Of a DNA stretch of 23,208 bases, positions 22,157 through 23,208 are shown piece after piece (position 1 is the stretch's first letter; every line of letters starts with the position of its first letter). The stretch covers positions 1 to 23,208 of IMG/VR virus record IMGVR_UViG_3300028008_000113; one strand, given 5' to 3'. The position numbers and the translations under genes were made by a program. Source of the DNA: a virus. The notes below the pieces were generated by a model, which saw only the letters and a program-made list of their open reading frames with translations, did not search any database and was not told the origin of the DNA.

Positions 22157-22164
22157 TATAAATA
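22157..22164 (+). promoter_or_regulatory. Perfect T4-type late promoter box
   Basis: TATAAATA, eight of eight to the T4 late consensus, begins 9 bases after the radical SAM stop. The start of transcription would be about 22171, giving a leader of roughly 73 bases before the GIY-YIG gene and allowing late synthesis of that gene and of the structured RNA downstream. Confidence 0.7.
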
Positions 22165-22243: not shown

Positions 22244-22687
22244 TTGTCATACAATAACCCTTGGTTATATAACAACAAAGTCTTTGATACAGAAGACATT
22301 GGGGACAACTACGGTTTCGTTTATCGAATTACCAACAATGACAACGGACATGACTATATTGGCAAGAAATTCTTTTGGCGTAAAGTCACTCGTCCACCAC
22401 TCAAAGGCAAGAAAAATAAAAGAAGATCATTGGCAGAATCTGATTGGAAGGAATACTGGGGTTCCAGCGACCGACTACAGGCAGATATAGGCAAACTAGG
22501 CAAAGAAAAATTCTCAAGACAAATAATTCATTTGTCAAAATCCAAAGGCTCAACAAATTATATGGAGTGCTACTATCAAATGAAAGAGAACGTGCTGTTA
22601 CGTGACGACAATTACAACGGCATTATTAATATTCGACTTGGTATAGGCTCTGTCAAAGACGTATTACTAGAAGACTTAAAAAAATAA
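22244..22687 (+). CDS. GIY-YIG family endonuclease
   Basis: This encodes 147 residues from a TTG start; the next Met is not until residue 107, inside the domain, and a good AAAGGA site precedes the TTG. The GIY-YIG motifs are seen as GFVYRIT (24-30) and DYIGKK (37-42), followed by a basic stretch (KGKKNKRR, 54-61), the YWGSS segment (71-75) and the likely metal-binding glutamate in NYMEC (E108). This is a single-domain member of a family scattered through T4-like phages, where relatives act as homing endonucleases or DNA-degrading enzymes. There is no separate DNA-binding domain beyond the basic patch. It has its own late promoter and is followed after one base by the structured non-coding region, an association also seen with mobile introns. 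Confidence 0.85.
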   Translation: MSYNNPWLYNNKVFDTEDIGDNYGFVYRITNNDNGHDYIGKKFFWRKVTRPPLKGKKNKRRSLAESDWKEYWGSSDRLQADIGKLGKEKFSRQIIHLSKSKGSTNYMECYYQMKENVLLRDDNYNGIINIRLGIGSVKDVLLEDLKK

Positions 22688-22902
22688 ACAGCCATTGATG
22701 CAGAGTGTTCTCTGTGTCCTATGAGGAGATTGCGGAAACGCATGGAACACACAAGAATAGACTTGTGTACGGGACGGCAACAGGCAAATAATAACTAAGT
22801 GTAAAAACTAAAAGATGTGGGCTCTGAGAAAAAGCAACCTACGTGACTTTGATAGTTGGCTAATTACGGCTATCATTGCATCCGCCAGATGAAGCTAGAA
22901 TA

Positions 22903-22925
22903 GGGGGTACCGGCTGACCGCCTCC
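22903..22925 (+). other. G5/CCTCC hairpin with CGG-CTGA-CCG tip
   Basis: GGGGG (22903-22907) pairs with CCTCC (22921-22925) with one G-U pair; after a three-base bulge (TAC), CGG pairs with CCG around a CTGA loop. It stands out as the most GC-rich element in an AT-rich genome. Confidence 0.65.
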
Positions 22926-22984
22926 GTGTATTAATACAATTTCTTTTAATTAGTATGTGCGTAAGACTCAGATAAAGTGTCTTT

Positions 22985-23014
22985 CATACTTGACCTTGCA
23001 ATAGGTGAAGTATG
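22985..23014 (+). other. 11-bp hairpin with one G-G mismatch
   Basis: CATACTT (22985-22991) pairs perfectly with AAGTATG (23008-23014). Inside, after a G-G mismatch, ACCT pairs with AGGT around the loop TGCAAT. It is flanked by AAGTG (22975-22979) and CACTT (23035-23039), which can close a junction around it. Confidence 0.65.
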
Positions 23015-23090
23015 GCAGAAAGATCTAGATAAAGCACTTAAAAACATATAGTATATCAATGTAATATAAAATATTTAATTTAGAAAAGAA

Positions 23091-23208
23091 CTTCGAGCGT
23101 TAGCGAAGAAGTAGATGTCAAAGACATCTTAAATAAGCCCATTGAACTATAGGATATAATCTTTATTATGTGATATCCACGGCTTAACAGTCTGTTAGGA
23201 TATTAAGA
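23091..23208 (+). other. Second block of the structured RNA
   Basis: This block contains CTTCG/CGAAG (23091-23095/23104-23108), a perfect 7-bp hairpin AGATGTC-AAA-GACATCT (23113-23129), and an outer stem TAAGCC/GGCTTA (23134-23139/23181-23186) enclosing GGATAT/ATATCC (23152-23157/23173-23178). TAACA-GTC-TGTTA (23185-23197) follows. The structure reaches the window edge and is probably incomplete. Confidence 0.6.

Follow-up and report, generated by a model that had tools for sequence, protein, structure and literature searches.

What is encoded, if anything, in the half kilobase of DNA that follows a GIY-YIG gene at the end of a stretch of the viral record IMGVR_UViG_3300028008_000113? The whole stretch analysed here (hereafter, the window) comprises positions 1-23,208 of that record, and within 22689-23208 the ORF list contains no reading frame of at least 50 aa, so that the gap is indeed gene-free, as a first-pass annotation made from the letters alone had stated. 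That annotation proposed a selected large structured RNA with at least ten stems. The folding energy of these 520 bases is -130 kcal/mol, compared with -113 +/- 5.8 for dinucleotide shuffles (z -2.9), and 0 of 100 such shuffles fold as well. The features of the locus are as follows.

22157..22164, plus strand: late-promoter-like octamer TATAAATA, a sequence match upstream of the GIY-YIG gene
22244..22687, plus strand: GIY-YIG (SegE-type) gene (Pfam PF19835, SegE_GIY-YIG, E 8.5e-39), directly upstream of the RNA
22689..23131, plus strand: structured RNA of ~440 nt, delimited by common ends across 30 close relatives and by covariation
23132..23208, no strand assigned: lineage-specific spacer outside the RNA family, the last ~77 bases

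Plain DNA similarity searches against phage records returned only chance-like matches of ~45 bases, and none for two diverged relatives, because the family is too diverged; homologues were therefore collected from the neighbours of related GIY-YIG genes and by motif scans. The former route yielded four close homologues (L001, L002, L003 and L004), of which L001 is identical to the window and extends past its end, while 74-79% likeness was seen for L004, L003 and L002. Two conserved motifs, scanned against viral contigs, added ~100 further loci, which were confirmed by profile, and a third motif added 78 new loci, each a covariance-model match at E <1e-6. Homologues are thus present at >180 IMG/VR loci, and in far-T4 phages of the sea and fresh water the RNA is usually single copy. 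There is no conserved ORF at the RNA position in the homologues, nor a frameshifted coding gene in any relative.

The edges of the RNA, 22689 and 23131, were set by comparison and are predicted ends. In all close relatives, the RNA begins at or just past the stop codon of the upstream gene (at or adjoining the GIY-YIG stop codon in the window) and closes with a hairpin of the form AGATGTC-NNN-GACATCTT, followed by differing sequence, often directly by the end of a convergent gene. In the window, this hairpin (P12) reads AGATGTC-AAA-GACATCT and sets the 3' edge at ~23131, the same end as in every close relative. The spacer at 23132-23208 is missing from L003, L102, L151 and L137; in these, P12 is directly followed by different sequence, frequently the next gene's end. 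Hence the originally proposed span, which ran to 23208, holds as RNA up to 23131 and has to be shortened by its last part. The elements of the predicted structure are given below.

22691..22778, plus strand: 5' domain, with a closing helix, a hairpin, P2, P3 and P4
22691-22693 with 22776-22778, plus strand: closing helix of the 5' domain, AGCC/GGC (mutual information)
22700-22715, plus strand: hairpin of the 5' domain
22716-22723 with 22770-22775, plus strand: P2 (covariation)
22731-22742, plus strand: P3, with a GAAA loop (covariation)
22751-22768, plus strand: P4 (covariation)
22798-22809, plus strand: P5 (covariation)
22817-22842, plus strand: P6 (covariation); the P5-P6 region is 22798..22842
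22819-22839, plus strand: family signature GGGCUCUGAGAAAAAGCAACC, within P6 (motif scan)
22851..22874, plus strand: P7 hairpin, whose loop 22860-22866 (CUAAUUA) is the 5' strand of PK2
22860-22866 with 22947-22953 (UAAUUAG), plus strand: pseudoknot PK2 (covariation)
22884..22918, plus strand: pseudoknot PK1, GCCAG 22884-22888 with CUGAC 22914-22918, the 3' strand lying inside the P8 loop
22897..22944, plus strand: core closing helix P8', AGAA 22897-22900 with UUCU 22941-22944, enclosing P8 and P9
22903-22907 with 22921-22925, plus strand: P8 (covariation)
22927-22929 with 22936-22938, plus strand: P9
22966-22977 and 23023-23034, plus strand: twin motifs ACUCAGAUAAAG and AUCUAGAUAAAG, respectively, flanking P10
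22984..23015, plus strand: P10, a 13-bp hairpin (comparison with close relatives)
23090-23112, plus strand: P11 (comparison with close relatives); the 3' end region is 23090..23131
23113-23129, plus strand: P12, the terminal hairpin (common 3' end in close relatives)

Comparison with relatives backs ~14 helices, among them the GNRA-capped hairpin previously seen by eye (GCG-GAAA-CGC, ~22732-22741); the last two hairpins are preceded by an AU-rich linker of variable kind. Covariation was assessed in 30 close relatives (A2), 42 diverged sequences (A3) and 32 copies from jumbo phages (A4). In A2, both sides change in 46 of 81 pairs, and 97.6% of cells are paired, against 84.9% in shuffled and 31-42% in slid controls. 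For the core in A3, the respective values are 31 of 41 pairs and 87.6%, against 71.6% shuffled and 43-52% slid, and in A4, 28 of the 32 core pairs covary and 98.5% of cells are paired (PK1, 100%; PK2, 99.6%), compared with 74.1% after shuffling. By mutual information alone, structure pairs fill the top dozen places. Within the close set, P2, P3 and P4 together show compensatory changes in 16 of 17 pairs. All 78 loci picked by a variant of the GGGCUCUGAGAAAAAGCAACC motif are covariance-model matches.

The G-U pairs within helices that had been noted from the sequence are present and conserved (U-G in P7, G-U in P8), which argues for the RNA nature of the element and for the plus strand. Comparative analysis demonstrates that 22689-23131 encodes a predicted structured RNA whose family has no Rfam model. 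That it acts as RNA is well supported given the conserved G-U and U-G pairs, the compensatory character of the base-pair changes and the absence of an ORF. The proposal of a selected structured RNA is therefore borne out, since the stems covary and the fold is better than that of the shuffles.

The core of the RNA consists of two interlocked pseudoknots on a closed helix. PK2 connects the P7 loop with a strand located after the core closing helix and, in the diverged set, shows both-side changes in 7 of 7 pairs, with 90% of cells paired; the strands are CUAAUUA/UAAUUAG in the window, CUGACUA/UAGUCAG in L151, CUUGUUA/UAACAAG in L098 and UUUGUGA/UCACAAA in L019. PK1 pairs five bases of the P8 loop with the five bases that start at the G of a conserved CCG. 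Over 11 distinct strand pairs (GUCAG/CUGAC, GUUGA/UCAAC, GUGAG/CUCAC, GAGCG/CGCUC and others), 52 of 55 PK1 positions are paired, compared with a mean of 34 and a maximum of 45 in 2000 shuffles; in the window, four of the five pairs form. Covarying pairs in the diverged set also include 4/4 in P8' and 3/5 in P8. The twin motifs around P10 vary in concert, with the same letter at three varying positions in 9-10 of 10 distinct pairs, which is not base pairing and perhaps reflects two identical contacts.

Three other structural candidates were discarded. A long helix proposed by RNAalifold (268-272/444-448 in A2) lacks covariation and competes with the covarying closing helix P8'; the inner CGG/CCG of P8 is replaced by PK1; and a resemblance between the P7 loop GGCUAACUACGG and the 530 region of 16S rRNA was set aside because this loop covaries with its PK2 partner.

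The nearest cultured relatives of the hub gene of the window are jumbo phages. In PBECO4 and GAP32, the hub-gp46 spot is a gene-free gap of >800 bases, and a covariance model built from far-T4 sequences only (R1) matches this gap in PBECO4 (E 0.0094), where the sequence shows the same core. The PBECO4 stretch recurs at 163 places in 41 phage records: four copies in PBECO4, five in GAP32, three in RaK2 and ~5 each in Munch, Hallingskeid, CBB, BF, XbC2 and XaC1. Cultured jumbo phages of the 121Q/GAP32/RaK2 group thus have 3-5 paralogues each; these lie in gaps without genes, most of them are unannotated, and they share the double-pseudoknot core with the far-T4 phages. Several of the PBECO4 and GAP32 copies occupy matching gene contexts, which implies that these copies are old.

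Further R1 searches find most of the jumbo copies on the expected strand and in the expected place (best, 7e-7 in PBECO4 and 4e-5 in RaK2), and the best match of R2, a model from jumbo copies only, in 143 kb is the window at 22851-22957 (E 0.035); these cross-group matches are weak to moderate, and Infernal E-values are rough given the short calibration. The R1 scan of whole genomes of cultured phages was empty under strict filters, and the copies were found with the filters off. The order of helices is the same in both groups, and the joining bases CCG, UAG, CG, G and AAU are common to both, in the pattern CCG at PK1, closing helix-UAG-P8, PK1-(C)CG-P8, G-P9 and AAU-closing helix-PK2. We take the far-T4 and jumbo groups to be homologous on this comparative evidence. 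A core match at 4e-5 was also detected on the minus strand of L115 (9247-9395), a GC-rich, otherwise unrelated 106.8 kb phage contig with neither gp46 nor the hub gene nearby; judging from the core match alone, pseudoknots aside, this suggests a wider spread of the RNA. Matches in Atu_ph07, PA5oct and Salicola SCTP-2 are weak and were not counted as members, and no significant match was obtained for PA5oct, Atu_ph07 or Phosso. In PA5oct, a gap near gp46 (L310, 5520-7050) contains AAAGGATGTTGCTCTGGTAGAAAAAGATCAAC, close to the P6 signature, with small ORFs annotated over it, and is probably a further diverged member. Two bacterial assembly contigs with a jumbo-type core, L427 and L428 (Silvania hatchlandensis and Enterobacteriaceae RIT714), are probably phage genomes inside bacterial assemblies.

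Large structured phage RNAs are already known as a broad kind. Rfam gave no relevant family for the window, for its relatives or, at E up to 10, for the stretch taken by itself, in agreement with the initial impression that no known family is involved. The kinship to GOLLD, ROOL, a known ribozyme or an intron core that had been considered is not borne out: no GOLLD or ROOL match was found for the stretch or its relatives at E up to 5-10, no match to HDV or other ribozyme models, no group I intron match in Rfam, P3-P7 core signature included, and no tRNA or tmRNA gene in the window with ARAGORN. Like GOLLD and ROOL, large ornate RNAs of bacteria and phages (PMC12286853), the RNA is large, structured, non-coding, present in phages and poorly understood in function, with covarying helices and pseudoknots, but it differs in its size (~440-500 nt), double-pseudoknot core, gp46/hub spot and 3-5 paralogues per jumbo genome. 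A GIY-YIG gene beside a structured phage RNA is reminiscent of group I introns with GIY-YIG endonucleases; unlike those, however, this RNA lies between two genes rather than within one (in the close relatives, between a stop codon and the following, mostly convergent gene, without split exons). Similarly to HEARO and OMEGA RNAs, it is often located directly beside a nuclease gene; here, however, that gene is replaceable or absent and hence not obligate, and no Rfam match to HEARO was found. No description of the RNA was found in the open-access literature; on that basis the family appears to be new, as do its double-pseudoknot core and its number of copies in jumbo phages.

The first-pass annotation also implied a functional tie to the GIY-YIG gene, and this is not supported. 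In far-T4 phages, the RNA usually lies between the gp47-gp46 operon, at whose end it is found, and the convergent baseplate-hub gene (Pfam T4_baseplate). Among 38 loci selected by the RNA and with enough flank, gp46 is a neighbour in 30, the hub gene in 27, GIY-YIG in 18 and a PD-(D/E)XK gene (PF24608; 'RusA-like Holliday junction resolvase' in PHROG) in 15. The GIY-YIG gene does end where the RNA begins in most far-T4 loci, and HNH genes lie near two PBECO4 copies, as might be expected of a guide or scaffold RNA used by the nuclease in a homing or OMEGA-like system. Nevertheless, this reading is highly improbable: the RNA is often found with PD-(D/E)XK instead, with GIY-YIG inverted, or with neither gene, it was not found at ~66 loci carrying the same GIY-YIG family, and the SegE-type genes of cyanophages have other gene contexts. 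For these reasons, GIY-YIG and RNA as a unit were rejected; as far as gene order tells, GIY-YIG is a frequent neighbour of the RNA, linked by position only, and not a required partner. No protein family was found to accompany the RNA everywhere.

A TATAAT box directly precedes most jumbo copies, usually in the form TGxTATAAT, and TG[AG][AG]A[CT] lies ~14-17 bases before it. This motif is close to the TGAAACG/TATA promoter that was predicted in CBB and noted in GAP32 (PMC5259590), and in some copies an intrinsic-terminator-like hairpin with a T run follows. Among 17 far-T4 and L115 copies, most of which do not follow a co-directional GIY-YIG gene, 6 are preceded by a sigma-70-like site with no more than two mismatches, compared with 6% of control windows. 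That the RNA forms its own transcription unit in many genomes is accordingly well supported by these predicted promoters: most jumbo copies come directly after a phage promoter, and several far-T4 copies that lack a co-directional upstream gene have good sigma-70 promoters before them. In the window itself, no strong promoter was found just before the RNA, which therefore may be cut from the gp46/GIY-YIG transcript here. The octamer TATAAATA may drive GIY-YIG and the RNA as a late transcript in this genome; the window also encodes a gp55-like late sigma factor (phrog_12791, E 3e-73).

These arrangements bear on two further explanations, both improbable. A cis-acting 3' element that protects, processes or ends the gp47-gp46 mRNA at the convergent junction would fit the same-strand position at the end of this operon in most far-T4 genomes and the terminal hairpin that touches the end of the next gene in some of them. 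However, the orientation to the neighbours differs in L194, L234, L212, L268, L090 and L107, the jumbo copies, which have promoters of their own, are spread over 4-5 unrelated gene contexts, and the fold far exceeds a terminator. An origin transcript, serving to prime or mark DNA replication at several origins in each jumbo genome, could account for the multiple copies, the early or middle type promoters and the one copy close to recombination genes, but other copies are found near spanin, sigma, methyltransferase and ADP-ribosylglycohydrolase genes, with no replication theme, and T4 origins are not known to need such a fold.

HDV-like ribozymes contain a nested double pseudoknot in the order P1, P2, P1', P4, P2', a P3 hairpin and a catalytic C before the last P2 strand. 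The order of the core described here (PK1, P8', P8, PK1', P8, P9, P8') resembles this arrangement, with PK1, the closing helix and P9 in similar order, and a self-cleaving or other ribozyme would be compatible with the tight double pseudoknot, its conserved joining bases and the retention of both pseudoknots over great divergence. Yet P8 is 5 bp here, there is no counterpart of the HDV P3 hairpin, and most members have AAU as the strand leading into the closing 3' strand, where no C is conserved; together with the lack of ribozyme model matches, this makes such an activity unlikely.

The best reading of the comparative data is an independently transcribed, trans-acting structured RNA of a new family that would be neither an intron nor a nuclease guide nor a form of GOLLD or ROOL. 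Good confidence attaches to the components derived from comparison, namely a structured RNA family, its distribution, the two-pseudoknot core, action as RNA and an own transcription unit in many genomes. An important job is very probable because the RNA has been kept through deep evolution in large T4-like phages of the sea, lakes and the laboratory. We tentatively propose that it binds a factor in trans: it would be made early to mid infection, fold into a rigid scaffold and bind one partner, be it a host protein, a phage protein or further copies of itself, and the bound RNA would help in host takeover or in protecting the phage. The chances are not quite even that it represents an ancient new class of RNA machine: a double-pseudoknot RNA that many of the large T4-like phages have kept and jumbo phages have multiplied to 3-5 paralogues, and that assembles with a partner, possibly one paralogue with another, for a core step of infection in which an RNA had not been suspected.

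A conserved folded RNA, mostly unannotated, is thus present in up to five copies in well-studied laboratory phages of E. coli, Cronobacter, Klebsiella and Salmonella, and no mention of it was found in jumbo-phage genome papers in the open-access literature. Deep conservation and two covarying pseudoknots imply a real task. Jumbo-phage biology gains an RNA part to study, and the role of large phage RNAs becomes a testable question in E. coli jumbo phages. The small ORFs annotated over the RNA are spurious, which corrects the annotation.

Several observations concern the neighbourhood of the RNA. Just before the RNA, where the gp46 operon ends, PD-(D/E)XK (PF24608) and SegE-type GIY-YIG genes take each other's place (L238, L231, L207, L160 and others), and jumbo phages have EndoVII or RusA genes in this slot; possibly, these are alternating Holliday-junction nucleases. 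Between gp46 and GIY-YIG, the window contains a radical SAM gene (PF04055, 20739-22148); in relatives, this slot holds SGNH-like, SDR-like and further radical SAM genes and is a hot spot of gene exchange. Convergent to the RNA, the minus strand of L001 (5039-5269) encodes a 76-aa, possibly membrane protein that has no family match and is strongly conserved in the closest relatives of the window. Finally, the SegE-type GIY-YIG protein, a GIY-YIG endonuclease according to Pfam, is labelled 'NAD synthetase' in many cyanophages (e.g., NC_020845.1 and NC_015283.1) and in PHROG 447, which is likely a misannotation that has spread.
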